A stretch of 64,000 bases of DNA from Lachnospiraceae bacterium (lineage in GTDB: Bacteria > Bacillota > Clostridia > Lachnospirales > Lachnospiraceae): the NCBI GenBank assembly GCA_009780115.1, contig WRAQ01000005.1:35752-99751 (forward strand), read 5' to 3'. The notes beneath the pieces are model-generated. The model was not told where the DNA came from and made no database searches. It saw nothing but the letters and a program-made list of their open reading frames with translations. The position numbers and the translations under genes are program-made. The first letter of the stretch is position 1. Every line of letters begins with the position of its first letter. Positions 17,303 to 64,000 of this stretch are shown piece after piece.

Positions 17303-17396
17303 AGCGAAGAGTTTATCTAAATTTGTGTCAATAAGAACGCAAACAAAGAAAATCTAAAGCTTCATACGGGAAGAATGATATTATATATTATTCTTC
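17303..17396 (+). repeat. Family B structured intergenic element, copy 1
   Basis: It begins at the pelG stop. Segments shared with the copies at 35.5, 39.9 and 53.3 kb include ATCTAAATTTGTGTC, AAAGAAAATCTAAAGC and TTCATACGG. The inner helix TTTGTG/CGCAAA pairs with one G-T wobble. A 3' hairpin GAAGAAT/ATTCTTC closes the element, as in the 35.5 kb copy. Confidence 0.7.
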
Positions 17397-22203: not shown

Positions 22204-22285
22204 TGCACACAAATCGCAAATATGCGGTTTAGTGCTTTCGCAACTCGGGATTTTGCGCAAAAAGCACGCAAAACACCTCGCGGAA
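22204..22285 (-). repeat. Family C interspersed repeat, copy 1
   Basis: Read on the minus strand it contains TCCGCGAGGTGTTTTGCG, TTGCGCAAAATCCCGAGT, TGCGAA and GCGATTTGTG, in the same order as the copy at 47.2 kb. GTGCTTT pairs with AAAGCAC across the middle of this copy. It fills the gap between the ATP-grasp and SCP2 genes. Confidence 0.75.
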
Positions 22286-22682: not shown

Positions 22683-22804
22683 CTCTTTAAAGCAGACAAT
22701 AAACTCTCTTCGTCGCTGTGACCTATTGAACTTACATTTACGCTTTCTTTCGGGAAGAAGGCGGTCTAATGCTTCTGCGAGATGTTTTTGTCTGCTTTAC
22801 GGAG
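22683..22804 (-). repeat. Family A structured intergenic element, copy 1
   Basis: This 122-nt imperfect palindrome begins right after the pncB stop and reads in pncB's direction. The outer helix is TAAAGCAGACAA (22688-22699) with TTGTCTGCTTTA (22788-22799), 12 perfect pairs. The minus-strand core TTAGACCGCCTTCTTCCCG is shared with three other copies. The inner pair here is GACC/GGTC instead of GGCC/GGCC, a compensatory change. Confidence 0.85.
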
Positions 22805-22805
22805 C

Positions 22806-24257
22806 TTAAGGATTTGTCTCCCTGAGTAGCTTCATTTTCGTGTCATAAAGTTCCTGCGACAAATCCACATAAACCACATGGGGATTGACAAAACGCCTGG
22901 TTTCGTCCCACAAAGTCGCAAGTTCATTTTGACAATAATCACGGATTGTCATAACCGGCGGTGAATCATAAACACATTCACCATCTTTAAATATCGGTAT
23001 CATTAATTCGCGCAGCCTGAAACTTCCGCCGTCAAGTACGGTTTTTTTCCATGGCTCATTGGGGTCAAAGAGTTTGAGCGGCTCTTTTTCATGATATTGT
23101 TCGTCAACTAAGCAAATCAAATCGGCTTTAATTTTGCCGCTTTCTTTATCATAAATGCGGAGTACTTTTTTATTACCCGGATTTGTTACCTTATCTGAGT
23201 TCTCCGAAAATTTTATCTTAGGTACAAATTTGCCGTCAGCCCCCATAATTGCTGCTAGTTTGTAGACTCCGCCAAAAGCCGGGTCGTCTTTGGATGTGAT
23301 CAAGTGTGTCCCAACCCCCCAAGTGGTAATCATCGCCCCTTGAGCTTTCAGGCTTTCAATCAAATACTCATCAAGATCATTGGAGGCAGAAATAATGGCA
23401 TTAGTAAATCCGGCGGCATCCAGCATTCGCCGGGCTTTTTTGGAAAGATAAGCCAAATCTCCGCTATCTAAACGGATGCCATAATTTTTCAATGGGGAGC
23501 CGGCCGCCCGCATTTCTTCAAAAACCCGGATTGCATTAGGGATACCTATTTTGAGCGTATCATAAGTATCTACCAGTAAAAAACAAGCATTGGGGTACAT
23601 CTCGGCATAAGTTTTAAAAGCCGTATACTCATCGGGAAAACTCATCACCCAACTGTGGGCATGAGTGCCGCGGACAGGTACATCGAAAAGCTGTCCGCAA
23701 AGAACATTCGAGGTGCCGACACACCCGCCAATCATCGCCGCCCTTGCCCCATAAATCCCGGCATCAGGCCCCTGTGCCCGGCGTAAACCAAACTCTAAAA
23801 TGCTGTCACCCTTTGCGGCATAACAAACGCGGGAGGCCTTAGTTGCAATTAAGCTTTGGTGGTTAACAATATTCAAAATTGCGGTTTCGATTAACTGCGC
23901 TTCCATAATCGGGGCAACAACTTTAATAAGTGGTTCACGGGGAAAGACCACCGTACCTTCGGGAATCGCATAGATGTCGCCGGAAAAATGAAAACTCTGT
24001 AAATATGCTAGAAAATCTTCATCAAATATTTTAAGGCTGCGCAGATACTTAATATCTGCTGCCGAAAAGTGCAGTTCCTTAATAAAGCGGATTAGTTGCT
24101 CAAGGCCGGCAACAACCGCATATCCGCCATTACAGGGATTTGACCGGTAGAACATATCAAAAATGACAGTCTCATTGCGGTCTTTGTGACGGAAATATCC
24201 TTGCATCATTGTAAGCTCATATAAATCGGTCAATAAAGTGAGATTTTGTTTGTCCAT
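22806..24257 (-). CDS. pncB: Nicotinate phosphoribosyltransferase
   Basis: This 483-residue enzyme joins nicotinate and PRPP to nicotinate mononucleotide in NAD salvage. Characteristic segments are LLTDLYELTMMQGYFRHKDR at the N-terminus, EFGLRRAQGPDAG (phosphoribosyl site), VRGTHAHSWVMSFPDEYTAF with the catalytic His, and YGIRLDSGDLAYLSKKAR. Length and order match the Gram-positive PncB type. It diverges from the GH26 gene; the 84-nt gap holds a TATAAT at 24275-24280 for the plus direction. A family A element follows its stop. Confidence 0.95.
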   Translation of the reverse strand: MDKQNLTLLTDLYELTMMQGYFRHKDRNETVIFDMFYRSNPCNGGYAVVAGLEQLIRFIKELHFSAADIKYLRSLKIFDEDFLAYLQSFHFSGDIYAIPEGTVVFPREPLIKVVAPIMEAQLIETAILNIVNHQSLIATKASRVCYAAKGDSILEFGLRRAQGPDAGIYGARAAMIGGCVGTSNVLCGQLFDVPVRGTHAHSWVMSFPDEYTAFKTYAEMYPNACFLLVDTYDTLKIGIPNAIRVFEEMRAAGSPLKNYGIRLDSGDLAYLSKKARRMLDAAGFTNAIISASNDLDEYLIESLKAQGAMITTWGVGTHLITSKDDPAFGGVYKLAAIMGADGKFVPKIKFSENSDKVTNPGNKKVLRIYDKESGKIKADLICLVDEQYHEKEPLKLFDPNEPWKKTVLDGGSFRLRELMIPIFKDGECVYDSPPVMTIRDYCQNELATLWDETRRFVNPHVVYVDLSQELYDTKMKLLRETNP

Positions 24258-24341
24258 GGGGATAGTATATATGATATAATTAGATGAGGCAAATTAAATA
24301 ACGAGTGTTATTTCACTCATCATACTGAAAGGGGTTTGTAA

Positions 24342-25955
24342 ATGATTAAAAAAATTAGTTTACTAATAATTGGAGGGTTAATGTTGATGACTTTATTAGG
24401 ATGTGCAACAACGGAAAATGATGAAATTGTCATGGAAGCGGAGCAAATCTTACCGCCGTTGGAGACTGCCGCTACGGCACCGCCGGAGCGGCCAAACCGC
24501 CCGCCGGTGCCGGAACGCGAACGTTTACCCCGGCCGGCTCGCGTGGTTAACCTGGGCCAGACAAGTGATTTGCCCCCTCTTGCTCCGGTTAATTATTTGG
24601 CAAGTGATGCGAATATATATGGAAGTTTAACGGTGATGAATGATGGTGTGGTTGGGCGTTTTGAGCAAAAGGACCGGGACGACCGGCTAGAGTTTGTGAT
24701 TGATATTGAACGTGAAGGTTTTTACCGCTTGGAGTTTTTAGTAATAACTTATGGTGGCTATAAAGAAAATTACTTATTTATAAATGATATGCCGGAAGGG
24801 AAATTTTCCGCTGAGAACGAAAATGAATTTGCAGTATCTTCGGTTAGGAATGTTTATTTCGAAGCAGGCACACATACGGTAGCAATAACCGCCGAGTGGG
24901 GCTGGATAGCAATACAGTCGCTGACCGTAACCGAAGAAGGCGGAATCGACAGTTCGATTTATGAAGTGCCGATTACCCTCGTTAACCCTAATGCTGATGA
25001 TAATGCCCTTGCCTTAATGAGTTTCCTGGCAATGAATTACGGTTTGTATTCGCTGGCCGGTCAGCAAAGCCAGGGAGATTGGCGGAACGACCATGGTTTA
25101 TTCGGCGGTGAAGCCGGTTTTATCTATGAACAAACTGGTAAACGCCCGGCGGTCATAGGCTTGGATATGATTGATTATTCTTTGTCACGGGTTGCCCGCG
25201 GGACAACTTCCCGAGAAGTAGAAGCGGCAATAGAAGCTTGGGAAAACAATGCAATTGTCACTTTTTGCTGGCATTGGAACGCACCAACACCTTATATTGA
25301 CGGGACATGGTGGTCGGCATTTTATACTGACCATTCAAAAAAAGACTTTTTCAAAAAAATTATGGACGGCAACGACCCTGAAGGTTATCAGCTTCTATTG
25401 GATGATATTGATGAAATCGCCAAACAGTTGGGGCGGTTAAATGATGCCGGGGTGCCAATTCTGTGGCGTCCTCTGCACGAAGCAAGCGGCGGCTGGTTTT
25501 GGTGGGGGACCGATAGGGACTCTTATTTGAAATTGTGGAAGTTGATGTTTGAGCGGCTGAACGATCATCACGGTTTGACCAATTTGATTTGGGTTTGGAA
25601 TGGCCAGCATAAAGACTGGTATCCCGGTGATGAATATGTTGATATTATTGGTGAAGATATTTATCCCGGTGAACGGGTTTATGCTTCACAAGTGAATAAA
25701 TTCCTTGAAGCAAAGGCTTATACCGAAGCTCCGAAAATGGTAGCGATGACCGAAAACGGTTGTTTATTTGATCCGGAATTAGCCAAACGCGATGGCGCGA
25801 TGTGGAGTTTTTGGTGTATTTGGAATGGTGATTTTGCGACAACCGAGCAGTTTAATGAATTTGATATGCTAAGGCAGGTTTACAATAGCGACTTGGTTTT
25901 GACCTGGGAGGATTTGCCGGATTTGAAGAGTTATCCGATTTATTTCGAATATTAA
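24342..25955 (+). CDS. Lipoprotein beta-mannanase (GH26) with N-terminal carbohydrate-binding module
   Basis: This 537-residue protein has lipobox LLGC, a Pro/Arg-rich linker and a CBM35-like beta-sandwich (about residues 85-200, with FVIDIEREGFYRLEFLVITY and YFEAGTHTVAITAEWGW). The GH26 TIM barrel runs from about residue 210. The acid/base is probably Glu380 in WRPLHEASGGWFWWG and the nucleophile Glu471 in VAMTENGC. GH26 enzymes mostly cut beta-1,4-mannan. Anchored on the cell surface, it could release manno-oligosaccharides for the transporter operon at 28.6-45.6 kb, which ends in a GH130 phosphorylase. A terminator follows. Confidence 0.92.
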   Translation: MIKKISLLIIGGLMLMTLLGCATTENDEIVMEAEQILPPLETAATAPPERPNRPPVPERERLPRPARVVNLGQTSDLPPLAPVNYLASDANIYGSLTVMNDGVVGRFEQKDRDDRLEFVIDIEREGFYRLEFLVITYGGYKENYLFINDMPEGKFSAENENEFAVSSVRNVYFEAGTHTVAITAEWGWIAIQSLTVTEEGGIDSSIYEVPITLVNPNADDNALALMSFLAMNYGLYSLAGQQSQGDWRNDHGLFGGEAGFIYEQTGKRPAVIGLDMIDYSLSRVARGTTSREVEAAIEAWENNAIVTFCWHWNAPTPYIDGTWWSAFYTDHSKKDFFKKIMDGNDPEGYQLLLDDIDEIAKQLGRLNDAGVPILWRPLHEASGGWFWWGTDRDSYLKLWKLMFERLNDHHGLTNLIWVWNGQHKDWYPGDEYVDIIGEDIYPGERVYASQVNKFLEAKAYTEAPKMVAMTENGCLFDPELAKRDGAMWSFWCIWNGDFATTEQFNEFDMLRQVYNSDLVLTWEDLPDLKSYPIYFEY

Positions 25956-25975
25956 ATGAATAATCTTTTTAATTA

Positions 25976-26020
25976 AGGATATAAGCGAAATAACTATGAT
26001 TTTGCTTATATCCTAATTTT
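25976..26020 (+). terminator. Rho-independent terminator after GH26
   Basis: AGGATATAAGC (25976-25986) pairs perfectly with GCTTATATCCT (26004-26014), followed by AATTTTATTG. The stem extends inward by further A-T pairs. Confidence 0.75.
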
Positions 26021-26059
26021 ATTGTTCTGAAATCCATTAAACTGTATTTAATACTTTTT

Positions 26060-26320
26060 TCAGAAAAAAGGCGCCCGGAAGAACTGGAAAATTACTTTTA
26101 TACCTTTGATTATACCAAAGAAGTTTTGGTTTATCAAAACGGCGACCAGATTGAGGCAGAAGTTTATCTGGAGGAAAACACTGATGCCTATAAAAATCAA
26201 ATGGAACAGGATTTGAAAATAATAAATAATCAATTGCCGGTCTATAAAAATATTACGAAAATTAAATTCAGAGAAACAGAATTTCCCAAGACTCCAACAA
26301 AAAAAATAAAAAGAGGGTAA
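26060..26320 (+). pseudogene. C-terminal remnant of an AMP-binding (adenylating) ligase
   Basis: The reading frame ending at 26320 encodes EKRRPEELENYFYTFDYTKE, then VLVYQNGDQIEAEVYLEENT and a final KFRETEFPKTPTKKIKR. This is the small C-terminal domain of acyl/aminoacyl-adenylate ligases, with the catalytic Lys near the KTPTKKIKR end. The ~400-residue N-terminal ATP-binding domain is missing. Upstream, the frame runs through non-coding sequence into the GH26 terminator, so a deletion joined the two regions near 26.02-26.06 kb. The only start-like codon is a TTG at 26126. It is followed by a carrier protein gene 5 nt later, the natural partner of such a ligase. Confidence 0.75.
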
Positions 26321-26324
26321 TTTC

Positions 26325-26564
26325 ATGGAAATAATATTAAATAAATTAAGGGAGATTATATCACCATACTTGGAGGGGCCATGTGAAATTGAAATGGAAA
26401 CACATCTTATCCAGGATCTAATGATTAATTCTTTTGATTATACAAATATCATAGTTGATATTGAGGAAGTGTTTAATATCGAAATTGATATTTTGGGTTT
26501 ACATAGAACAAAAGACATTGTACAATATATATATGAAGCAAGTGGCATTATAAAGGAGGAATAA
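26325..26564 (+). CDS. Acyl carrier protein
   Basis: This 79-residue protein has the four-helix carrier pattern. The phosphopantetheine attachment site is probably Ser36 in LIQDLMINSFDYTNIIVDIE, where the usual DSL is changed to NSF. Helix II and III segments (EEVFNIEIDILGLHRTKDIV) are typical. It lies between an adenylating-ligase remnant and a BtrH-like protein, suggesting a dedicated carrier for a tailoring or peptide pathway rather than fatty acid synthesis. The stretch is more AT-rich than its neighbours. Confidence 0.85.
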   Translation: MEIILNKLREIISPYLEGPCEIEMETHLIQDLMINSFDYTNIIVDIEEVFNIEIDILGLHRTKDIVQYIYEASGIIKEE

Positions 26565-26567
26565 TTA

Positions 26568-28025
26568 ATGAAAAAGGTTTTAGACATTGTATTACCATCA
26601 TTAAGCGGTTATATGGAAGATGCCTATCCTTTATCTCTTTTAGAAACAAAAAGAAAAACATGCGAATGGATTTACAGCGGTTATGTACAGTTAGTATTTC
26701 AAACTCCGGAATTATGCAGTTATCAGCCGCTAAAATTTTTCAAAATATCACCTTCCGGCAAATCATGGGATCCAATGATTTCCTGGTTTAATACATATAG
26801 CATAACCAAAAAAATGGCAAAATCGCTAAATTTAAAAATCATTGACCTCATGCGTAACTCTATCGATATGGGATACTATGTTAACATTCATTTGGACGAA
26901 TATTATCTTCCTCATGCAAATCCTTATAAATCGTTCCATTATACCCACATTACCTTAATTTTTGGTTATGATGATGAAAAAATGATATTCTATGCACTTT
27001 CTTATAATTTTAAAGGGGACTTTAATAATGTTGAGATAAATTATTATGATCTTGAAATATCGTATGAAGGCGAAGGGGATACAAATCAACAAGCACTTAT
27101 TGAACTATGGGAATGGAGAGAACATTATGGATATAATTTTAGTGTCAAGCGGTTATTATCCCAATGCAATGCTTATTTGACAGGTGATAATAATTATATC
27201 GATATTAAGGATTTTTATAACCAAAAAAATAATAATGTTTATGGGTTGGATATATATGAAAAATTGAAAGGTTACAGTAAAATTTCTAATAATGTTATCC
27301 CTTTTCAAATTATCCGTGAACATAAACAATTAATGTATCAAAGAATAAATTTTATGATTGAGAATGAATATATTAATAAAGATGATTATTTCTTGATAGA
27401 AGGCAATGAAATAGTTGATAAAGCAATAATTCTTAAAAATCTTTTTATGAAGAGTGTCGTCAGCGAAAACAAAAAAATATTAGGAAAGATTGATGAAGCA
27501 ATTGATTGGTTATATAATCATGAAAAAATATATTTTGCAAAATTAATCAAGGCCCTTGAAAATTATGATAGAAAAGAATTTATTTTTTCTGAAGTAGGGG
27601 AATGGAATGAGATTAAACATAAACTCAACCATTATCCTGATACAAAAAATGGGTTAAAGGTTGGATTTGATATTACTTTTATAAATAATCATTCAATTGG
27701 ATATATAGGGATAGGAAACCAGAAGAATTTTGCGAATTATGAACTTCCATTGTCATTTAACATTGACACTATAGCTAATACTTTTATTGGTAATAGAGAT
27801 TCTGTACCATTTGAGATACCATTTAATATTACTAAAGGAAAAGTTTTCTCGTTTTCTATAATTTTTGATTTTGAGAAACAAAAATGTAATTTAAAGATTA
27901 TTGCCGATAATGAATATAAAAAAGAGAATATTAATATGGTGGTAAATTTTGACTATAGCGGCGAAATATTTGTGTATTTTATACATGAAAATGGTTATCG
28001 GTTTAAAGTGAGATTGCATACGTGA
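26568..28025 (+). CDS. BtrH/C39-like protein of a carrier-protein-dependent pathway
   Basis: This 485-residue protein is recognised mainly by YYVNIHLDEYYLPHANPYKS, followed by FHYTHITLIFGYDDEKMIFY (about residues 104-144), a pattern of BtrH N-terminal and related papain-like domains found beside carrier proteins. In butirosin synthesis BtrH transfers an acyl group from a carrier protein. No clear catalytic Cys is present in the first 100 residues near a CG/CxxC context, so activity is uncertain. The C-terminal third (about residues 350-485) looks beta-rich. AAGGAGG precedes the start, 4 nt after the carrier stop. Very AT-rich codons suggest recent transfer. Confidence 0.55.
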   Translation: MKKVLDIVLPSLSGYMEDAYPLSLLETKRKTCEWIYSGYVQLVFQTPELCSYQPLKFFKISPSGKSWDPMISWFNTYSITKKMAKSLNLKIIDLMRNSIDMGYYVNIHLDEYYLPHANPYKSFHYTHITLIFGYDDEKMIFYALSYNFKGDFNNVEINYYDLEISYEGEGDTNQQALIELWEWREHYGYNFSVKRLLSQCNAYLTGDNNYIDIKDFYNQKNNNVYGLDIYEKLKGYSKISNNVIPFQIIREHKQLMYQRINFMIENEYINKDDYFLIEGNEIVDKAIILKNLFMKSVVSENKKILGKIDEAIDWLYNHEKIYFAKLIKALENYDRKEFIFSEVGEWNEIKHKLNHYPDTKNGLKVGFDITFINNHSIGYIGIGNQKNFANYELPLSFNIDTIANTFIGNRDSVPFEIPFNITKGKVFSFSIIFDFEKQKCNLKIIADNEYKKENINMVVNFDYSGEIFVYFIHENGYRFKVRLHT

Positions 28026-28076
28026 CTTATTATCGTTCAAAAAATTTGAACTGACTTAACGTCCTTACACTAAAGC

Positions 28077-28105
28077 GCATAATCCCCACCCCCTCATCAT
28101 AGAAT
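28077..28105 (+). promoter_or_regulatory. Possible sigma-E promoter of spoIIID
   Basis: GCATAAT (28077-28083) and CATAGAAT (28098-28105), 14 nt apart, resemble the sporulation sigma-E consensus (-35 KMATATT, -10 CATACAMT). In Bacillus, spoIIID is transcribed by sigma-E. Position relative to the TTG start at 28133 fits. Consensus matching was by eye. Confidence 0.4.
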
Positions 28106-28126
28106 GTAAAAAACGTATGACGAGGG
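28091..28126 (+). promoter_or_regulatory. Hairpin covering the spoIIID ribosome binding site
   Basis: CCCTC and TCAT (28091-28100) pair with ATGA and GAGGG (28117-28126), with one A-C mismatch. The 3' arm is the GAGGGA that would serve as ribosome binding site, and ACTTTTTTG follows up to the TTG start. It could act as an attenuator or terminator, or limit translation. Confidence 0.45.
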
Positions 28127-28132
28127 ACTTTT

Positions 28133-28399
28133 TTGAAGGATTATATTGAAGAGCGAGCTATCAATATCGCTAATTATATTATTGATCACAATGCTACTGT
28201 CCGTCAGACCGCGAAGCAATTTGGCATAAGTAAAAGCACCGTACATAAAGACGTAACTGACCGCCTTACCCAAATCAATCCTCCCCTGGCGAAAGAAGCG
28301 AGAAAAGTACTGGATATTAATAAATCTGAGCGTCATATCCGTGGCGGCCTCGCAACCAAAGAAAAATATTTGCAGAAGCAAGATGCGAAAATTGCATAA
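28133..28399 (+). CDS. spoIIID: Sporulation transcription factor SpoIIID
   Basis: This 88-residue DNA-binding protein aligns along its whole length with SpoIIID: a start equivalent to MxDYIxER, then NATVRQTAKQFGISKSTVHK (helix-turn-helix) and KSERHIRGGLATKEKY, with the basic C-terminal tail of the family. SpoIIID controls mother-cell genes during endospore formation. The start is TTG (28133), which places the first residues exactly as in homologues. It is monocistronic with a strong terminator, and is direct evidence that the host is a spore-former or derives from one. Confidence 0.93.
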   Translation: MKDYIEERAINIANYIIDHNATVRQTAKQFGISKSTVHKDVTDRLTQINPPLAKEARKVLDINKSERHIRGGLATKEKYLQKQDAKIA

Positions 28400-28427
28400 C
28401 TAAAGAACAAAAGAAAGACCTAATAAT

Positions 28428-28471
28428 CCCCGCCTTTCCTCAATTTGGTAAAGGCGGGGATTTGTCTTTTT
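28428..28471 (+). terminator. Rho-independent terminator of spoIIID
   Basis: CCCCGCCTTT (28428-28437) pairs perfectly with AAAGGCGGGG (28450-28459), followed by ATTTGTCTTTTT. The remaining ~190 nt up to the next gene are strongly AT-rich and probably hold the promoter of the glycan-uptake operon, which I could not place with confidence. Confidence 0.9.
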
Positions 28472-28658
28472 GCCCAAAAATTTTTGTAATCATTAATAAT
28501 TACTATAAAATACCTACAAAAATTATTATATATTTATATTGCAATATTATAAAAAATACCGCATAATAGAATTAATTATGTATAAATTATTAATAAGAAA
28601 TGAATAATACTGGATTTAATGCTGTACAGAATTACTAAATCTTCCGGGAGATTGATTC

Positions 28659-31634
28659 ATGAAGTGTTACCATACTTTTAAACGGCTGATTGCCACAATA
28701 TTAGCTGTTTCGATAGTCTTAACTTCATTTACCAGTAATATGATTAGCTCTGAAGCCGCTGAAATGTCTATGGACGAACTATCGGAAATCGTCAGTACAT
28801 ATAATATCGACAACTCTATCCCTTCTTACAAAAATTACCAGTTGAAACATGCAAATGCCATTTTTCCCGTTGGGATTGTTGAAATCCCGGCCAGTGATTT
28901 TATCCGTTATGAAGAAAGCGGCCTTCCTGCGGTCCCCGAACTTTGGGAAAACTATGAAGGTGTCCCCGGTGTCAGTGTTTTAACTAGTGAAGATTCTCTG
29001 ATTGAATTTAAATTTACGGTTTCTGAAAGTGGTTTATACAATGTTTCGGTAGTTTATTACCCCGTTGAAGGCAAGAACTCAAATATTGAACGCAGCTTCT
29101 TTATTAATGGCGAGCTGCCGTTTAAGGAATTGAATCAAGCCAATTTTACCCGCGTTTGGAAGAGCAACGTCGCAGAAACCAGGGTGAATGAGCATGGAAT
29201 TACTGAATTGATTTGGGAAAAAGACAATCAGGGTAATGATATTAAACCAAGCAGTATTGAAATTCCGGAATGGCAAAGCCGTTTTATTTATGACAGCAAG
29301 GGTTATATCACCTCACCTTTACATATTTATTTCGAAGCCGGTGAAAATACGATTTCAATGTTGTCGCGCCGCGAGCCGATGTTGATTAACAAATTGGTTC
29401 TTAGCAATGAAGGGGCTTTGAAAAATTATGATGAGGTAAAGGCTGAATGGGAAGCGCAGGGTGCAAAAGAAACCTCCGGCCATCATATTTTTATTGAGGG
29501 TGAGTACGCATCCAAAACCTCTTCGCAAATGTTGGTGCCGCAGCAGGTTCAAACTTCGCCTTCAATTAGTGATGTCAGTGCGAGATATTTGCTCAATAAT
29601 GTTATCGGCGGTATTTCCTGGGGCCATGTCGGCCAATGGATTGAATGGGAATTTGAAGTTCCGGAATCCGGTTATTACAATATCTCAATGTACAATTGTC
29701 AAAATTTCGTTCGTGGTATCCATGTTTCGCGGCGTATCTATATTAATGATGAAATTCCTTTTGCCGAACTATCCGAATATGCTTTTAATTACAAACAAAA
29801 TTTTCGTGAAGATGTTTTGAGTGATAATGAAGGTGAGCCTTATTTATTTTATTTTGATAAAGGCCGCCATACTCTCAAAATGGAAGTAGTACTCGGCGAA
29901 TTTTCCGAAATTGTCGGCCTTGTTGATGAATCGGTACTGAAACTTAATGCGATTTATCGTCAGGTTATCCGGATTATCGGAACGACTCCCGATACTTTCC
30001 GCGATTATCAGATTGCCCGGGTATTACCGAATTTGAACGGAGAATTAGTTGAAGTCCGTGATATCTTGAATGAAGCAATTTCCCGCCTTGAAGTTGTCGC
30101 CGGGCGCAATACGGACAAAAAAGCAACTCTTTTAACCATGCGTGATATGGTTAACGATCTGATTCGGGATGAGGAGCGTTTCGTGCGTGTTGTTAAGGAA
30201 TATCGCACTAACGTCCGCGCCTGTGGTAACTGGATTGCCACGATTATCAATCAACCGCTGCAAGTTGACCGGATTAATATCTATTCCCCTGATATTGAAA
30301 TAAAATATGAAAAAACTTCGATTTTTTCTAAGATATGGTTTGAGATAAAACGTCTATTTTATTCCTTTATTATTGATTATAACCGGATTGGTTCGATTGT
30401 TGAGGGTGACGGAAAAAGGGCAATTACGATTTGGATTGGTACCGGCCGTGACCAGGCGAATATTATTAAGTCAATGATTGATGAAAGTTTTACTCCTACG
30501 ACTGGAATAGGCGTAAATGTTCAGTTGGTTGATATGGCAACCTTACTCCGGGCATCGCTGGTCGGGGAGGGCCCTGACGTTGCGCTGCAGGTAGCGAGCA
30601 CCAATGCGGTTGCCGGTACGGTAATTGCCGGAAATGATACCCCGGTTAATTACGGTATCCGTAATGCAGTACTTGATTTGGCACAATTTGACGATATTGA
30701 TGAAGTTCTTGAGCGTTTCCCTTTTGCCGCATATGAGCAGTTTAGCTTTGGCGGGGCGGTTTATGCTTTGCCGGAGACCCTGACTTTCCCGGTCATGTTC
30801 TATCGCAAGGATATCCTTTCGGAAATCGGCCTTGCTGTCCCTAGTACTTGGGATGAGGTCAAAGTTGCGATGTCAGTCCTGGCAAAGAATCAGATGGAAT
30901 TTGGAATGCTTCCGAATGAACAGGCTTTTGCTTCGTTATTATACCAAAATGGCGGTGCTTATTATACTGAAGATGCCCGGGCATCAGCTTTGGATTCTGA
31001 TATTGCGATTAGGGTTTTCCGCGAGTTTTGTGAGTTTTATACCGATTATAAACTGGATAAAGACATCAGCGTTGAAGAACGTTTCCGGACCGGTGAATGC
31101 CCGCTGATGATTTCTTGTTACACCACTTATAATAATTTTGCGGTTTCGGCACCGGATATTGCCGGCTTGTGGAGTTTTGTCCCCTTCCCCGGTACAGTAC
31201 AGGAAGATGGAAGTGTTGATTTTTCCGTTGCAAGCACGGGACTTGCGGCAATGATTATGGCTGATACCAAAGAACCGGATGCGAGTTGGGAGTTCCTTAA
31301 ATGGTGGACCAGCAAAGAAACGCAGGTTAAATATGGCCGGGAAATGGAAAGCCTGATGGGGGCTGCTGCCCGTGTCCCAACGGCGAATTACGAAGCTTTC
31401 CTCAATATGCCATGGCCGGTTGATGACTTTAAAGCCCTGCAAAAATCAAAAGAGTGGGTCCGGGGCATCCCGCAGGTCCCCGGTGGTTATTATAGCTGGC
31501 GTAATGCCTTTAACGCTTATTTTATCGTCTTTGACAAACCGGATACCAAACTGCCACGGGAAGAACTGATGGAGAAAGTAATTTATATCAACGCGGAAAT
31601 AGCGCATAAACGCGCCGAGCTTGGGCTGGATTAG
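28659..31634 (+). CDS. Large secreted ABC solute-binding protein with two N-terminal lectin-like domains
   Basis: This 991-residue protein has a signal peptide (about residues 1-34, without a lipobox Cys). Two similar beta-sandwich, CBM-like domains lie at about 60-255 and 275-440; both contain an EFxFxVxESGxYN motif and a closing YFEAGENT/YFDKGRHT strand. A helical linker (450-530) and a family 1 sugar-binding domain (about 580-985) follow, including KRAITIWIGTGRDQANIIKS, then GEGPDVALQVAS and ALPETLTFPVMFYRKDIL. Normal solute-binding proteins are ~430 residues, so this is more than double. The lectin domains may hold polysaccharide at the cell surface. First gene of the glycan-uptake operon. 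Confidence 0.88.
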   Translation: MKCYHTFKRLIATILAVSIVLTSFTSNMISSEAAEMSMDELSEIVSTYNIDNSIPSYKNYQLKHANAIFPVGIVEIPASDFIRYEESGLPAVPELWENYEGVPGVSVLTSEDSLIEFKFTVSESGLYNVSVVYYPVEGKNSNIERSFFINGELPFKELNQANFTRVWKSNVAETRVNEHGITELIWEKDNQGNDIKPSSIEIPEWQSRFIYDSKGYITSPLHIYFEAGENTISMLSRREPMLINKLVLSNEGALKNYDEVKAEWEAQGAKETSGHHIFIEGEYASKTSSQMLVPQQVQTSPSISDVSARYLLNNVIGGISWGHVGQWIEWEFEVPESGYYNISMYNCQNFVRGIHVSRRIYINDEIPFAELSEYAFNYKQNFREDVLSDNEGEPYLFYFDKGRHTLKMEVVLGEFSEIVGLVDESVLKLNAIYRQVIRIIGTTPDTFRDYQIARVLPNLNGELVEVRDILNEAISRLEVVAGRNTDKKATLLTMRDMVNDLIRDEERFVRVVKEYRTNVRACGNWIATIINQPLQVDRINIYSPDIEIKYEKTSIFSKIWFEIKRLFYSFIIDYNRIGSIVEGDGKRAITIWIGTGRDQANIIKSMIDESFTPTTGIGVNVQLVDMATLLRASLVGEGPDVALQVASTNAVAGTVIAGNDTPVNYGIRNAVLDLAQFDDIDEVLERFPFAAYEQFSFGGAVYALPETLTFPVMFYRKDILSEIGLAVPSTWDEVKVAMSVLAKNQMEFGMLPNEQAFASLLYQNGGAYYTEDARASALDSDIAIRVFREFCEFYTDYKLDKDISVEERFRTGECPLMISCYTTYNNFAVSAPDIAGLWSFVPFPGTVQEDGSVDFSVASTGLAAMIMADTKEPDASWEFLKWWTSKETQVKYGREMESLMGAAARVPTANYEAFLNMPWPVDDFKALQKSKEWVRGIPQVPGGYYSWRNAFNAYFIVFDKPDTKLPREELMEKVIYINAEIAHKRAELGLD

Positions 31635-31652
31635 GGTTATGTATGTTATTGA

Positions 31653-31780
31653 GTAAGGAAGATAAAGTTATCTCAAAACCAAACCGAAGATGGAACCTTA
31701 GGCCGCCTTCTTCCCGAAAGAAAAAATTTATTTTGCACCAATTAAGCCGTAGAGACAGAGATATACTTTATCTGACTTAC
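31653..31780 (+). repeat. Family A structured intergenic element, copy 2
   Basis: Outer helices are GTAAG/CTTAC (31653/31776), AGATAAAG/CTTTATCT (31660/31766) and TATCTC/GAGATA (31669/31758), different in sequence from copy 1 but fully paired. The core TTAGGCCGCCTTCTTCCCG and AATTAAGCCGTAGAGAC are conserved. It lies between the solute-binding protein and permease genes. Confidence 0.85.
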
Positions 31781-31820
31781 GGAGCAGAATGTCACTCGAT
31801 AAAATATAAAGGATAAACAA

Positions 31821-32762
31821 ATGGAACAAGTAAAAGCAAAAGCGGATGCACTGGCAATTGCGAAAAAACAAGCAACTCTCCGCTACCAGATTAAGAAAAA
31901 TAAGGCCTCGTATATGATGCTTGCGCCTTACTTTACCTTGTTTTTCTTTTTCACAGTTCTGCCGGTTGTGATGTCGGTAGGACTAAGCTTTACTTTTTAT
32001 AATATGCTTGAAATGCCCCAGTTTATCGGCTGGAGAAACTATATCAAACTTTTCCTTGAGGACGATATTTTCCTTAAGTCCTTAAAAAATACTTTAATTC
32101 TTGCCCTTGTCACCGGTCCGGTTAGTTATTTCATGTGTCTGTTATTTGCCTGGATTATTAATGAGTTTAAAGGCTGGCTCCGGGCTTTTCTGACTTTGAT
32201 TTTTTATGCGCCTTCAATTTCCGGCAATGCTTACATCGTTTGGCGGCTGATTCTTTCGGCTGACCGTTATGGATATTTGAATGGCTTCTTGATTGAATGG
32301 GATATTATTGCCGAGCCGATTCAATGGCTTGTGACCCCGACCTGGATTATGCCCGCTTTGATTGTTGTTCAATTATGGCTTAGCCTTGGAACTGGTTTTC
32401 TTGCCTTTATCGCCGGTCTGCAAACGGTTGACAAAACATTGTATGAAGCCGCCGCGATTGACGGAATCAAAAACCGCTGGCAGGAATTATGGTATGTCAC
32501 CTTACCCTCAATGAAACCACAGTTGATGTTCGGAGCGATTATGCAGATTACCAATGCTTTTGCTATTGCCGACGTTTCGATACAATTGATGGGGAACCCT
32601 TCGGTAAACTACGAAGGTTCAACCGTTGTTACCCACTTGCTTGATTATGGCACCGTCCGCTTTGAAATGGGTTACGCCTCGGCAATCGCAACCGTTTTGT
32701 TCTTTCTGATGCTAGGCACCAACCTGATAGTCCAAAAAATGCTCCGCCGGGTCGGTACTTAG
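31821..32762 (+). CDS. Sugar ABC transporter permease (MalF type), first pair
   Basis: This 313-residue protein has six membrane helices and the MalF-like permease fold, with a cytoplasmic N-terminal segment of ~30 charged residues. The ATPase-coupling EAA loop is YEAAAIDGIKNRWQELWYVT. An AAAGGAT ribosome binding site precedes the ATG. It pairs with the MalG-type permease encoded 254 nt downstream; the long gap holds a family A element and a half copy. Substrate inferred as mannan-derived oligosaccharide from the GH130 gene in the operon. Confidence 0.92.
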   Translation: MEQVKAKADALAIAKKQATLRYQIKKNKASYMMLAPYFTLFFFFTVLPVVMSVGLSFTFYNMLEMPQFIGWRNYIKLFLEDDIFLKSLKNTLILALVTGPVSYFMCLLFAWIINEFKGWLRAFLTLIFYAPSISGNAYIVWRLILSADRYGYLNGFLIEWDIIAEPIQWLVTPTWIMPALIVVQLWLSLGTGFLAFIAGLQTVDKTLYEAAAIDGIKNRWQELWYVTLPSMKPQLMFGAIMQITNAFAIADVSIQLMGNPSVNYEGSTVVTHLLDYGTVRFEMGYASAIATVLFFLMLGTNLIVQKMLRRVGT

Positions 32763-32813
32763 GATTGAATTTGATAATTTAAAGGTAGCTTACTGGGTAA
32801 ATACTTAGATTGA

Positions 32814-32927
32814 GTAAAGAAGGCAAAAACAATTCGAAGTTGCATTAGGCCGCCTTCTTCCCCATATGAAATTTGTAATTTACACCAATTAGGCCTAGCA
32901 ACGGAGAATGTTTATTGCCTTCCTTAC
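32814..32927 (+). repeat. Family A structured intergenic element, copy 3
   Basis: GTAAAGAAGGCAA (32814-32826) pairs with TTGCCTTCCTTAC (32915-32927) with a single A-C mismatch. The core TTAGGCCGCCTTCTTCCC and CACCAATTAGGCC are conserved. It lies between the two permease genes of the first pair. Confidence 0.85.
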
Positions 32928-32941
32928 AAAATAGATATATA

Positions 32942-32996
32942 TTTTACGCCAATTAGGCCGCAGAGTCGGAGAGAGCTTATTGCCCGACTTACGGAG
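32942..32996 (+). repeat. Half copy of the family A element (3' half only)
   Basis: TTTTACGCCAATTAGGCCG followed by CAGAGTCGGAGAG and TTGCCCGACTTACGGAG repeats the 3' half of the preceding element without a 5' half. It looks like a partial tandem duplication. Its arm TTGCC could compete for pairing with GGCAA of copy 3. Confidence 0.75.
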
Positions 32997-33016
32997 TTGA
33001 GATATAGGTACATATT

Positions 33017-33910
33017 ATGAAAGAAATCACCTTCAAAAAACTAAAAAAACGCCTTTTCAAACCAAAAGAAAAACAATTAAACCGCTCGATGGCCGGTAAT
33101 ACATTGCTTTTTACCCTGATGGTTTTTTGCGGCATAGCTATGATTATGCCCTTAGTAATGGTGGTTAATAATAGCTTAAAGCCCCTTGACGAACTTTTTC
33201 AATTCCCGCCGAAGATTTTCGTCAAAAACCCGACCCTGGAAAACTTCTCCGATTTGTTTGTGGTTATGAGTGATTCGTGGGTACCGTTTTCCCGTTATAT
33301 CCTCAATACGATTATCCTCACCGGCGGCGGAATGGTTGGCCATGTTATTGTTGCCTCTTTAGCAGCTTATCCCTTAGCAAAAAACAAATTTCCTGGCCAA
33401 AAAGTATTATTCCATATGGTTATCTTATCAATGATGTTTTCCTGGACGGTTACGCAGACACCACAATTTATGATTATCACTTGGCTTGGAATAAATAATA
33501 CATACTGGGCATTGATTCTTCCGGCTTTTTCGTTTGGCATGGGTTTGTTCCTAATGAAGCAGTTTATGGAGCAACTCCCTGATTCATTGATTGAGTCGGC
33601 ACGGTTAGACGGTGCCAACGAATGGCAGACATTCTGGAAAATAATTATGCCGAATGTCAAACCGGCATGGCTCACTTTAGCGATTTTCCAGTTTCAGCAG
33701 ATGTGGGCGAATACCGGCGGGACTTTCCTACGTGACGAACAGCTTAGGCCGATGCAGCATGCCCTTTTCCAGGTTGAAGCCGGGGGTGTTGCCCGGGCCG
33801 GTGCGGCTGCGGCGGTGACATTAATTATTGCTGCCGTCCCGATTACCTTTTTCTTGATTTGCCAGCGTAATATATTGGAAACGATGACTTCATCGGGGAT
33901 AAAAGAATGA
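33017..33910 (+). CDS. Sugar ABC transporter permease (MalG type), first pair
   Basis: This 297-residue protein has six membrane helices and the MalG-type EAA loop IESARLDGANEWQTFWKIIM. The basic N-terminus (KKLKKRLFKPKEKQL) sits in the cytoplasm. With the preceding permease it forms the heterodimeric channel for the large lectin-fused binding protein encoded upstream. The operon contains no ATPase gene, so a shared MsmK/MalK-type ATPase must be encoded elsewhere. Confidence 0.92.
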   Translation: MKEITFKKLKKRLFKPKEKQLNRSMAGNTLLFTLMVFCGIAMIMPLVMVVNNSLKPLDELFQFPPKIFVKNPTLENFSDLFVVMSDSWVPFSRYILNTIILTGGGMVGHVIVASLAAYPLAKNKFPGQKVLFHMVILSMMFSWTVTQTPQFMIITWLGINNTYWALILPAFSFGMGLFLMKQFMEQLPDSLIESARLDGANEWQTFWKIIMPNVKPAWLTLAIFQFQQMWANTGGTFLRDEQLRPMQHALFQVEAGGVARAGAAAAVTLIIAAVPITFFLICQRNILETMTSSGIKE

Positions 33911-33929
33911 AAATCAAGATGTTCATTCG

Positions 33930-33960
33930 GCAAATTTACGCCTAACGGCTCAAAATTTGC
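33930..33960 (+). repeat. Intergenic hairpin between the permease and NHL genes
   Basis: GCAAATTT (33930-33937) pairs with AAATTTGC (33953-33960), with an inner GCC/GGC pair. No T-run follows, so it is not a standard terminator. Confidence 0.6.
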
Positions 33961-33986
33961 AGGTTATGAAAGGCATAGACTATATA

Positions 33987-35501
33987 ATGAGAAAACGTCT
34001 TACTTCCATCATCATGGCGGTCTTTATCACCGCCGCAACAATCGCTGTTTCCACCTTGCCGGTTTATGCCACTCCTAGCGGGCTTCCTTATGATACTTAT
34101 AATTATGACCTATGGGAACAAATCAAACTTTCCCCGGCGGCTTATATTCCCGATAAGATTGTCCGGGCGGAGAATTTTACATATAACGGTGAGTCAATCG
34201 GCCGGTTTGCCAGCCCCCAGGATATCAGCCGTTCACCCTATGGCGACCTTTATGTTGCCGATACGGGTAATAACCGCATTGTCGTAATTGATAGCACGAT
34301 GTCAAACTGTATCAAAATTATTTCTTCATTTGATAATAACGGTGTCACCGATACCTTTAACCAGCCTACCGGTGTTTGTGTTTCCGGAAAAAATCAGATT
34401 TATGTTGCCGATTCACAAAACCGCCGGATTGTCGTCCTTGAGCAGGATGGGACGTTGGTAAAAATAGTTGCTAACCCGCGTTCCGAGAGCCTTGATGAGA
34501 ATTTTATTTTTACCCCCTTAAAGGTCGCGGTTGATTATGCCGACCGGATTTACTGTACCGCTCAGTTTATGTTTGAAGGGATTATGGTTTTTGAAGCTAA
34601 TGGTGATTTTTCCAGCTTTTTTGGCACGATTAGTGTTATCATAACCCCGTGGGAGCAAATTTGGAAACGGCTTGCGACGAGAGAACAGCGGGCGAACCAG
34701 CAGCTATTTATCCCCACTGAATTTACGGGAATTGATATCGACCAGGGTGGTTTTGTTTATGCTTCAAGTATTGATAATGAAGGGGTTCAGGGCGTACGGC
34801 GTTTGAATCCTAAAGGTGAGGACGTGATTAAAAAAGGCGGAAATGAAAATATCGGCGGCGACTTGATGATTTTCGGCCCGACGGATTTTGCCGGCCCGTC
34901 TCAGTTTATTGACGTTGTTTACCGGGGTAATGGGCTTTATTCCGCCCTTGACCGCCGGCGCGGACGGATTTTCACTTATGACCACGAAGGGAACCTTCTT
35001 TATATTTTTGGTGCCCTTGGTACTCAAGAGGGGACATTTAACCTTCCGGTATCAATTGAGGATATGAATGACAGGCTTTTAGTCCTTGATGCCGGGCGGT
35101 CGGAGATTGTTACTTTTAGAGCGACGGAGTACGGACGTTTGATAAATGAAGCGGTTTCCCTGCGTTTTGACGGTGATGAAGCCCTTGCGGTCGATTTATG
35201 GAAACGAGTACTTGAAATTAATGAAAATAATGAACTTGCCAATACCGGCCTGGGTAAAGCTTACCTGACCGCCGGTGATAATGCGTTGGCAATGAGATAT
35301 TTACGCCTTGGAATGAACCGTGAGTATTATTCGATTGCTTTCCGGCGTTACCGCAATAGTATCTTGATTGAACATGCCAATGCCGGCCTTACCGCAATGG
35401 CGGTATTAGTTGCCGGAAGTATGATTTTTAAGCGAATCCGCAAAACTAGAAAGAAAAAAGGTGATACCGATGATACTGGGGCAGGTTTTACATATGAATA
35501 A
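33987..35501 (+). CDS. Secreted NHL-repeat beta-propeller protein with TPR and C-terminal membrane helix
   Basis: This ~504-residue protein has a signal peptide (MRKRLTSIIMAVFITAA, cleavage near VYA). A six-bladed NHL-type propeller (about residues 45-385) has repeated blades such as PYGDLYVADTGNNRIVVIDS and KNQIYVADSQNRRIVVLEQD. TPR-like helices (NELANTGLGKAYLTAGDNAL) follow, then a membrane helix near residue 465 and a short basic tail. The start is uncertain: ATG 33987 gives the best signal peptide, while ATG 33966 and a TTG at 33957 are upstream in frame. It may recognise glycans or scaffold the transporter. The set NHL-YIP1-DUF5696 seems conserved next to such transporters. Confidence 0.8.
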   Translation: MRKRLTSIIMAVFITAATIAVSTLPVYATPSGLPYDTYNYDLWEQIKLSPAAYIPDKIVRAENFTYNGESIGRFASPQDISRSPYGDLYVADTGNNRIVVIDSTMSNCIKIISSFDNNGVTDTFNQPTGVCVSGKNQIYVADSQNRRIVVLEQDGTLVKIVANPRSESLDENFIFTPLKVAVDYADRIYCTAQFMFEGIMVFEANGDFSSFFGTISVIITPWEQIWKRLATREQRANQQLFIPTEFTGIDIDQGGFVYASSIDNEGVQGVRRLNPKGEDVIKKGGNENIGGDLMIFGPTDFAGPSQFIDVVYRGNGLYSALDRRRGRIFTYDHEGNLLYIFGALGTQEGTFNLPVSIEDMNDRLLVLDAGRSEIVTFRATEYGRLINEAVSLRFDGDEALAVDLWKRVLEINENNELANTGLGKAYLTAGDNALAMRYLRLGMNREYYSIAFRRYRNSILIEHANAGLTAMAVLVAGSMIFKRIRKTRKKKGDTDDTGAGFTYE

Positions 35502-35502
35502 T

Positions 35503-35585
35503 GTGAAGAATTAATCTAAGGCATCGGAAAAGGTCCGGCACCAAAGATTAACTAAAGCTTTACATGGAAGAATGTTCCATTCTTC
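35503..35585 (+). repeat. Family B structured intergenic element, copy 4 (divergent)
   Basis: GTGAAG/CTTTAC (35503/35558) and TTAATCT/AGATTAA (35511/35545) keep the helix positions of the other copies with different bases. The 3' hairpin GAAGAATG/CATTCTTC (35567/35578) is shared with copy 1. Unpaired CTAAAGC is also conserved. Confidence 0.65.
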
Positions 35586-35603
35586 TGGATTATGGAGAGT
35601 AGT

Positions 35604-36230
35604 ATGGAGAATTTCAGAGATAAATTGAAATATATGTGGTATACTGTCGGGCACCCGATGGACGGTTATTATTGGATTCGCCACCGCGAGCGGGGCAGTG
35701 TTTTGCTTGCAATTGTGATGATCATATTATTTTCCTTTAGTTTTACGGCTAACCGGCTGCTTGCCAGTTTTGTTGTTAACGATATTAACCCTCGTGGGAT
35801 TGACAGTTTTTATGAATTAATCGCAGTCCTTTCTTTCTTTTTACTTTTATCAGTAAGTAACTGGTCAGTTACCTGCCTGATGGGGGGCGAGGGGCGGATG
35901 AAAGATATTGTAATTGCTTTTGGGTATGGTACCGTCCCGATTACTGTAATGGTAGTTGCTGCAACGATTGTCAGCCAGGCAGTTGCCGACAATGAAATGG
36001 CTTTTTATTATATCATGCTGATTGCCGGAATTGGTTATGGCGTGATTATGATGCTAATCGGGGTTATGCAGGTTCATAATTATACGATGGGTAAAACTCT
36101 TTTCACCTTGTTTTTGACCTTTATATCACTCCTAATTATTATTTTCTTGATTTTACTTATAGCAAACATGCTGAGTATGGTGTATTTATTTTTTAGCAGT
36201 ATATATACGGAGATTTTCTTCCGTCTCTAA
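35604..36230 (+). CDS. YIP1 family membrane protein
   Basis: This 208-residue protein has five predicted membrane helices and a short N-terminal segment with MWYTVGHPMDGYYWIRHRER, typical of bacterial Yip1 domain proteins; the second helix region includes NWSVTCLMGGEGRMKDIVIA. I chose ATG 35604 because GGAGAG precedes it at proper spacing; an ATG four codons upstream lacks one. Function unknown. Fixed position between the NHL and DUF5696 genes suggests it is a membrane part of the uptake machinery or its assembly. Confidence 0.82.
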   Translation: MENFRDKLKYMWYTVGHPMDGYYWIRHRERGSVLLAIVMIILFSFSFTANRLLASFVVNDINPRGIDSFYELIAVLSFFLLLSVSNWSVTCLMGGEGRMKDIVIAFGYGTVPITVMVVAATIVSQAVADNEMAFYYIMLIAGIGYGVIMMLIGVMQVHNYTMGKTLFTLFLTFISLLIIIFLILLIANMLSMVYLFFSSIYTEIFFRL

Positions 36231-36243
36231 AATGTGGATTGGA

Positions 36244-36365
36244 TACGCAAGGAAGGTAAAAATTACTCGCGGGAACCTTAGGCCGCCTTCTACCCGCACG
36301 AAAACTTATATTTTACATTCAATTAGGCCGTAGTGACGGAGAGTATTTTTTACCTTCCTTGCGTA
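36244..36365 (+). repeat. Family A structured intergenic element, copy 4
   Basis: TACGCAAGGAAGGTAAAAA (from 36244) pairs almost perfectly with TTTTTTACCTTCCTTGCGTA (ending 36365). The core CCTTAGGCCGCCTTCTACCC and TTCAATTAGGCCGTAGTGAC are conserved. The 122-nt element occupies nearly the whole gap between the YIP1 and DUF5696 genes. Confidence 0.88.
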
Positions 36366-39944: not shown

Positions 39945-40008
39945 TATGAAGAGATTTTCTAAATTTGCACCCATTGGAAAGCAAACAAAGAAAATCTAAG
40001 TCTTCATA
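39945..40008 (+). repeat. Family B structured intergenic element, copy 2
   Basis: Helices are TATGAAGA/TCTTCATA (39945/40001), GATTTTCT/AGAAAATC (39953/39989) and TTTGC/GCAAA (39964/39981), all perfect. It directly follows the permease stop codon and forms a three-tier hairpin. Confidence 0.85.
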
Positions 40009-40075
40009 CGGAAACTTTGAGCTTGCAGCCAAAGATTGCAGACTACGGAGATATTTAGATTTAATGGGAGATAAG

Positions 40076-47201: not shown

Positions 47202-47335
47202 TTACAGTTCAAGGCATCATTGTTCCGCGAGGTGTTTTGCGTTTTGCGCAAAATCCCGAGTTGCGAAGCGCCAAATCGCATTTTTTAACGCGATTTGTGC
47301 ATTCGTTGCGGTTTGCGGTTTGTCGTGAACAGTAA
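47202..47335 (+). repeat. Family C interspersed repeat, copy 2, in the purC leader
   Basis: The core (47223-47302) contains TTCCGCGAGGTGTTTTGCG, TTTTGCGCAAAATCCCGAGT and GCGATTTGTGCAT, matching the inverted copy at 22.2 kb. AAATCGC/GCGATTT forms an internal hairpin. The outer arms TTAC-GTTCA and TGAAC-GTAA (47202/47326) pair around one A-A mismatch. It lies between the promoter and the ribosome binding site. Confidence 0.78.
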
Positions 47336-53202: not shown

Positions 53203-53300
53203 ATTGACCTCCAAAATGCGAGATGTAGTATTGAAAACTACGTCACGTATAGTAACATACTATGACATAACATTTCCTTTGTCAATAACAAATTTACCAA

Positions 53301-53360
53301 ACGAAGCTTTAAATTTTCTTTGGTTGTGTTCCAATGGACACAAACTTAGAAAATCTCTTG
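53301..53360 (-). repeat. Family B structured intergenic element, copy 3
   Basis: On the minus strand GAGATTTTCTAAGTTTGTGT, then CCATTGGAACACAACC and AAAGAAAATTTAAAGCTTCG. The helix AGATTTTCT/AGAAAATTT has one G-T wobble where copy 2 has a G-C, and the inner helix GTGT/ACAC is perfect. It follows the stop of the small gene at 53366 in the same direction. Confidence 0.82.
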
Positions 53361-63703: not shown

Positions 63704-64000
63704 GTCGCGCCTCACGCAGGCGCGTGGATTGAAACGCATTATATATAAAAGTGTGGTAGAATATATGTAGTCGCGCCTCACGCAGGCGCGTGGATTGAAA
63801 CGCATGAATGATAAACATTAAGTTTTTGGGGCAAGTCGCGCCTCACGCAGGCGCGTGGATTGAAACCGAAAATTGATATTGCATCAATAATTCCACGATA
63901 GTCGCGCCTCACGCAGGCGCGTGGATTGAAACTTCCAAATCAGATATTAACTTGTTTATATTGTGTCGCGCCTCACGCAGGCGCGTGGATTGAAACTTCA
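63704..64000 (+). CRISPR. Type I-C CRISPR array, leader-proximal five repeats (continues past the window)
   Basis: Five identical 32-nt repeats lie at 63704-63735, 63770-63801, 63835-63866, 63901-63932 and 63965-63996. Each begins GTCGCGCC, contains the stem GCGCCT-CACGC-AGGCGC and ends GGATTGAAAC, as in type I-C arrays. Spacers between them are 34, 33, 34 and 32 nt and AT-rich; a fifth begins at 63997 and is cut by the window end. The lack of mutations suits a leader-proximal, active end. I saw no match to these spacers elsewhere in the window by eye. Confidence 0.98.

Follow-up and report, generated by a model that had tools for sequence, protein, structure and literature searches.

ERIC sequences are imperfect palindromes of 127 nt, described as intergenic, present in many copies and predicted to form one long stem-loop; their orientation matters for the effect on messages (PMC2229807, PMC2267715). 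In Yersinia operons, ERIC is reported to lower the stability of the upstream transcript (PMC2229807). The bcr1-bcr3 repeats of the Bacillus cereus group, also Firmicutes, are described as lineage-restricted, MITE-like and often located in UTRs or operons (PMC3446304), a description that the family presented here resembles. The presence of bcr3 in a transcript correlates with a longer half-life in Bacillus cereus, and the same study reports no correlation with decay rate for bcr1 and bcr2 (PMC3446304); a TTTAT motif has been tied to bcr mobility (PMC6542083). BOX, RUP and SPRITE of Streptococcus pneumoniae are interspersed hairpin repeats, BOX being made of tandem sub-units, with a predicted effect on co-transcribed genes (PMC3049150). 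REP, BIME and REPIN are palindromic repeats between genes that have been proposed to act as mRNA stabilisers (PMC3733652).

The window analysed here, a stretch of 64,000 nucleotides from a Lachnospiraceae bacterium, contains four full copies of a hairpin element of about 117 nt (117 model positions). On balance, we lean towards a family of likely mobile DNA elements, whose hairpin, once transcribed, would change the decay of the flanking message.

A preliminary description of the window reported four imperfect palindromes with a shared core, each reading in the direction of the preceding gene. All four are present, in that orientation (Table 1). An 18-nt core occurs four times in the window at ≤3 mismatches, against 0.06 expected from shuffles, and a 24-nt 3' core occurs three times at the same threshold, against 0.00 expected; one of the three (32950-32973) lies in a tandem 3' half copy. 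The replacement of GGCC/GGCC by GACC/GGTC in the copy at 22.7 kb had been read correctly. This half copy, 134 further genome matches (E≤0.001) and the conserved G.A motifs are additions to that description.

Copy 1 lies directly past the stop of a nicotinate phosphoribosyltransferase gene (22806-24257, minus strand) in a convergent gap, while copies 2, 3 and 4 occupy gaps between co-directional genes. Copy 2 is preceded by a solute-binding-protein gene (28659-31634) and followed by an ABC permease gene (31821-32762); copy 3 separates the latter from a second ABC permease gene (33017-33910), and copy 4 has a Yip1-domain gene (35592-36230) on one side and a DUF5696 gene on the other. Copy 2 has an internal loop whose 5' side is 17 letters long instead of the usual three. 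In copy 4, the inner GGCC/GGCC encloses the conserved apical loop GCCTTCTACCC.

Table 1. Copies of the hairpin element in the window and the paired segments of copy 4
Feature	Window position	Strand	Basis or pairing
Full copy 1	22686-22801	-	covariance model, 103.9 bits
Full copy 2	31652-31781	+	covariance model, 73.4 bits
Full copy 3	32813-32928	+	covariance model, 120.4 bits
Tandem 3' half copy, abutting copy 3	32929-32997	+	repeat comparison in the window
Full copy 4	36246-36363	+	covariance model, 126.7 bits
Copy 4, outer helix, 5' arm	36247-36261	+	pairs with 36348-36362; A1 columns 2-16
Copy 4, outer helix, 3' arm	36348-36362	+	pairs with 36247-36261; A1 columns 106-121
Copy 4, ACTC beside 3x3 internal loop	36265-36268	+	pairs with 36341-36344
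Copy 4, GGAAC	36272-36276	+	pairs with GTGAC at 36333-36337 via a tandem G.A step
Copy 4, inner GGCC	36281-36284	+	pairs with GGCC at 36326-36329

The window holds other repeated sequences. A further dispersed repeat, about 67-71 nt long and with copies that are 79-82% alike, is found at 17306-17372, 39948-40014 and 53289-53359 (minus strand), and a sequence resembling it is present at locus L156. Three tandem repeats of about 300 nt, 80-85% alike, span 41864-42880 within an ORF (41103-42908), and a 30-nt inverted pair, 97% complementary, is located at 22237-22266 and 47238-47267, 25 kb apart. A CRISPR array with the repeat GTCGCGCCTCACGCAGGCGCGTGGATTGAAAC at a spacing of 64-66 nt is located at 63704-63996 and runs up to the end of the window.

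The host genome (G000) comprises 3.08 Mb in 72 contigs. A blastn search with one copy returned at least 45 pieces in it (40 of 136 candidates scored). A covariance model (R1) was built from alignment A1, which holds 30 of the 33 first copies, three with insertions being left out. With 150 of 2064 candidates scored, a search of the host genome with this model, of the kind that the preliminary description had called for, gave at least 142 matches at E≤1, of which at least 138 have E≤0.001, so that further copies are indeed present. A few of these matches are partial, and the actual total could exceed 138. The 142 matches amount to 0.53% of the genome sequence. Genomic context was analysed in 114 non-redundant host copies, left from 145 matches after removal of overlapping opposite-strand ones, and structure in 110, four partial or tandem matches having been dropped. 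Gene calls around the copies follow a simple longest-ORF rule, and tandem copies that share one gap are not independent.

In the consensus, a long outer helix is followed inwards by a helix of CTC/GAG type and a 3x3 internal loop; a five-pair helix comes next, then a small internal loop, and GGCC/GGCC encloses an apical loop beginning GCCTTCTTCCC. The apical CGCCTTCTWCCC is exact in 81 of 110 copies. Of the 110 minimum-energy folds, 108 have the outer helix closed, and the mean z is -4.2 relative to dinucleotide shuffles. The covariation that had been proposed from the four copies of the window is borne out by an alignment of 30 host copies, which scores 0.248 against 0.121 when shuffled and at most 0.072 when slid. 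In this alignment both sides have changed in 18 of 28 pairs, a value reached by none of 500 shuffles, and 85.4% of pairing cells are filled by pairs (77.7% shuffled, 31-45% slid); a measure of 'further pair types' was equalled in six of 500 shuffles. An alignment of 33 copies from the two species recovers the same helices, with a score of 0.251 compared with 0.116 after shuffling and no more than 0.101 after sliding. Here 296 of 500 shuffles equalled the alignment in 'further pair types', a measure not raised above the control, whereas none of 500 did so for the other four measures. Among the 110 host copies pair types alternate, for example G-C in 56 and A-U in 48, or C-G in 57 and U-A in 45. 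A parsimony count gave 248 switches on a poorly resolved tree, and is not taken as a number of events.

Shape is retained in places where the letters vary. In the 3x3 loop, 101 of 110 copies have GCA, GAA, GGA or GTA (GNA) on the 5' side and 99 have GGA or GAA (again GNA) on the 3' side; none of the 104 copies with such a loop has two fully complementary sides. The inner pair step is a tandem G.A/A.G in 50 of 110 copies and Watson-Crick in 47. At the outer pair step the tandem G.A/A.G is found in 34 of 106 copies and Watson-Crick pairs in 32, with one mismatch in 26 more; at other adjacent steps tandem G.A was found once. One further pair is A.A in 72 of 110 copies, while the neighbouring pairs switch type. 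Tandem G.A and GNA motifs stack well in RNA. In a comparison of the two strands, G.U outnumbers A.C by 52 to 31 (p=0.028), a weak effect uncorrected for shared descent. The folding energies of sense RNA and antisense do not differ in the host, where the sense strand is the more stable one in 57 copies and the less stable one in 53 (p=0.44); the corresponding ratio for the sister species is 22:10 (p=0.034), again a weak effect.

Some copies carry additional sequence. ACCAAA-containing insertions are found at the same internal loop in four copies (L002, L026, L058:2342-2474 and window 31652-31781), and a small hairpin is possible in three of the four insertions. At L017:1615-1726 the 3' half of the element is repeated in tandem with 56-nt spacing, resembling the half copy of the window.

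The element lies almost entirely between genes, with three of the 114 host copies overlapping a predicted ORF. Co-directional gaps hold 89 of the 114, of which 85 are in the sense and four in the antisense orientation (about 95% sense); eight of the remainder are in convergent gaps, eight in divergent gaps and nine at edges or within predicted ORFs. The median start of the 85 sense copies is about 19 nt past the upstream stop, and the median end about 41 nt ahead of the next start. Co-directional gaps are neither enriched nor avoided: they hold 89 of the 105 classified copies, and make up 287 of 364 gaps on seven contigs (p=0.21). With the leading strand set by contig GC skew, 85% of the co-directional gaps (244 of 287) are leading-strand, a share that the sense share exceeds (p=0.0016). 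Third-position skew was also tried as a marker of the replication strand, and was dropped as it separated leading from lagging genes poorly. In the seven contigs, 36 of the 37 copies in co-directional gaps are in leading-strand operons and one is in a lagging one, and gene direction and replication direction cannot therefore be fully separated.

The genes flanking the copies have mixed functions. The neighbours comprised 78 upstream and 79 downstream sequences, of which 72 each were aligned and scanned, duplicates and some others being left out; no family recurred in more than two of the upstream or four of the downstream proteins among the first 25 families listed. An S10-Clostridia ribosomal leader (Rfam RF03136; L015:1233-1358) is located about 110 nt past one copy. 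No excess of T follows the hairpin, with 3.2 T per 10 nt after it and 3.4 before, and six or more T in the 10 nt after the hairpin were found in 7 of 85 copies. Thus, the element is not an intrinsic terminator, and a SPRITE-like role of this kind was rejected.

The distribution of the family is narrow. Among 40 relatives, only the sister species (G005), of the same genus, was positive, with 34 matches to R1; the two-species model R2 gave 35. The other four genomes of the genus (90, 82, 83 and 53% complete) had no match, so that the element is found in two of six. Wider searches, which covered 199 genera of the family with 200 genomes and the order with 295, scored 18 and 12 candidates per genome under stricter filters and found matches in the host alone. 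The exact core pattern had no occurrence in genome_contigs and viral_contigs, collections from which the host's own or near-identical genome records may be excluded. The nicotinate phosphoribosyltransferase protein has a 90% match on WRLH01000002.1, from Lachnospiraceae bacterium isolate Th196P3bin150; Th196 appears as the label of a gut metagenome of the termite Termes hospes (PMC7024585). The preliminary description did not recognise a described family in it, and this stands as far as Rfam 15 is concerned, since searches of the window and of six element loci gave no match for the element: the window had none at gathering score, and the six loci at E≤0.1 had only the S10 leader beside one copy. 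No paper naming this hairpin family was found among titles and abstract openings.

The copies of the sister species fall into two types. In co-directional gaps, AAAA-type copies are sense in nine cases and antisense in one, while GGCAA-type copies, which make up the rest, are sense in six and antisense in eight, and so show no sense bias. Tandem mini-hairpins such as AGTAAGTCATACTTACG come after several of the AAAA-type copies (L061-L068, L131-L133, L143), and are perhaps internal-deletion derivatives. Eight loci of this species match host element loci at ≥45%. In this sample, taken from element loci only, seven have the host copy next to the matched gene within the same gap; the flanking genes are both matched in five cases, and a single one is matched in two. 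The partner copies in these seven gaps rank 17th-88th of 110, and are thus no closer than random copies and give no sign of common descent. One such pair, L139/L130, is in opposite orientation. An unbiased count of syntenic gaps in seven contigs left too small a sample, with three informative rows (two loci), one locus scored as occupied despite a wide interval and one empty.

As regards mobility, five copies lie inside a long form of 171-179 nt with 12-nt inverted ends of GTTACTATTCAC type. The long form is flanked by 8-nt repeats with seven or eight of eight positions equal in four of the five; the fifth (L016) has five. A wider, 373-nt pair of such ends around another copy (L072) lacks a flanking repeat. 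The outer repeat occurs 30 times in the host at ≤1 mismatch, against one for a reversed control, and is absent (0) from the sister species; it may therefore be a separate, second element that carries some copies. The repeat was also seen without the hairpin core, at about 30 host sites, and a 37-nt palindrome is located at L094:3225-3261. These core-less repeats perhaps constitute a separate small mobile family. For the short form, 8-nt direct repeats numbered 64 over 113 host copies, against 43.6 (sd 11.4) in permuted pairs, at most a slight excess and with no offset clearly preferred, and the sister species has 31 against 10.8 (sd 5.9), for which adjacent tandem arrays may be the cause. An exception is a 13-nt direct repeat at one short-form copy (L015). 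At the one site examined in this way, the gap past the nicotinate phosphoribosyltransferase gene, the element is present in the window and the gap is empty in the sister species. The RAYT transposase (Y1_Tnp, PF01797) was found in none of the six genus genomes, with the control positive in 5 of 14, and identity with the REP/RAYT system was rejected on this ground.

Covarying stems, persistent mismatches and the prevalence of the sense orientation point to selection on the transcribed form of the element. Judged from such patterns, selection at the RNA level is likely, although the evidence does not fully separate it from selection at the DNA level. The hairpin might be that of a parasitic miniature transposon, a DNA substrate of some transposase that covaries because only pairable copies move, with its orientation reflecting tolerance or replication. 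This we consider unlikely, though far from negligible. It would fit the lineage-restricted distribution, the outer inverted repeats with their 8-nt flanking repeats, the confounding of gene and replication direction, the sister subfamily without sense bias and the equal stability of sense and antisense; it is opposed by a sense bias of 85:4 that lies above the strand bias and by G.A motifs that suit RNA structure. Co-directional gaps are, moreover, not avoided, unlike the convergent-gap enrichment described for the pneumococcal repeats (PMC3049150). Covariation could even arise without selection, if template switching at a quasi-palindrome copied one arm onto the other, and at the outer step the tandem G.A (34 copies) does coexist with both corrected versions (GA/TC in 12, TC/GA in 10). 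Such repair would, however, have removed the 3x3 mismatched loop, which is complementary in none of 104 copies, and the A.A pair persists while its neighbours switch; this origin appears highly improbable.

A further alternative is a cis-regulatory RNA, in which the apical loop would act as a switch for translation or transcription of the next gene. The median distance of about 41 nt to the next start and the exact apical CGCCTTCTWCCC in 81 of 110 copies agree with such a role, which we nonetheless regard as improbable: no family recurs among the downstream proteins beyond the four of 72 noted above, there is no T excess, convergent gaps also hold copies, and the apical loop has no exact complement outside elements. 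Every one of the 83 genome matches of CCGCCTTCTWCCC falls inside the 142 model matches; a few are in partial ones, and for one (C17) the model match has an E of 0.23. A trans-acting RNA that would pair exactly with the apical loop was rejected for this reason. More speculative is a transposable RNA module, spread as DNA and selected as RNA, that, inserted in sense between operon genes, would control messages segment by segment across the genome, probably through a dedicated factor reading the GNA/GNA and GCCTTCTTCCC loops. We hold this to be rather doubtful; if it were true, usefulness of the part at certain gaps would explain why these are occupied in both species.

Under the reading that we favour, that of a mobile hairpin acting on message decay, a short DNA element form would spread copies around the genome. 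Where a copy is transcribed between the genes of an operon, it would fold as one long RNA hairpin and alter the speed of decay of the adjoining message segments, in an ERIC- or bcr3-like form with the hairpin shortly past the upstream stop and before the next start. By analogy with ERIC and bcr3, an effect on message decay would be the best-supported functional idea. Against this reading count the equal stability of sense and antisense in the host, the GGCAA-type subfamily without sense bias in the sister species, the confounding of gene with replication direction, the slight direct-repeat excess that is all the short-form ends display, the absence of a transposase source from a search confined to PF01797, the absence of a recurring family among the neighbour genes and the fact that bcr1 and bcr2, unlike bcr3, did not correlate with decay rate.

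It is common to regard small repeats in bacteria as parasites that the host tolerates. With 138 matches beside unrelated genes, the genome would offer a ready experiment on how an intercistronic hairpin sets expression ratios, and the family could serve to test if mobile repeats turn into regulatory parts.

Integron attC sites and Vibrio cholerae repeats are likewise long imperfect palindromes that trail genes in the gene direction. The typical ends of attC are AGTAAGG and CTTACG, unlike those of the present element, which are RYYYAAC and GTTRRRY among the copies listed. In Escherichia coli, REP separates the malEF genes, much as copy 2 lies between the genes for a solute-binding protein and its permease. 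REP and REPIN units, however, measure 20-40 bp and are accompanied by RAYT, whereas the present element occurs without RAYT in the six genus genomes. The pneumococcal BOX, RUP and SPRITE repeats are described as enriched in convergent gaps and 61-63% leading-strand (PMC3049150), whereas here 85 of 89 copies in co-directional gaps are sense. Compared with bcr, to which the likeness is one of description, the family belongs to another host group and has a strong sense bias. The likeness to ERIC is also by description, and the family differs in its Lachnospiraceae host, in its covarying stems and in a short form without clear target duplication. Of the earlier label of an 'ERIC-like transcribed element', the size, the hairpin and the intergenic position fit; for the rest, we infer transcription of the copies, selection on the RNA in addition to the DNA palindrome, and an influence on message decay. 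The element thus seems, by a modest preponderance of the evidence, to be a new ERIC- or bcr-like mobile hairpin family whose shape is kept at the RNA level and which likely acts on the decay of operon messages.
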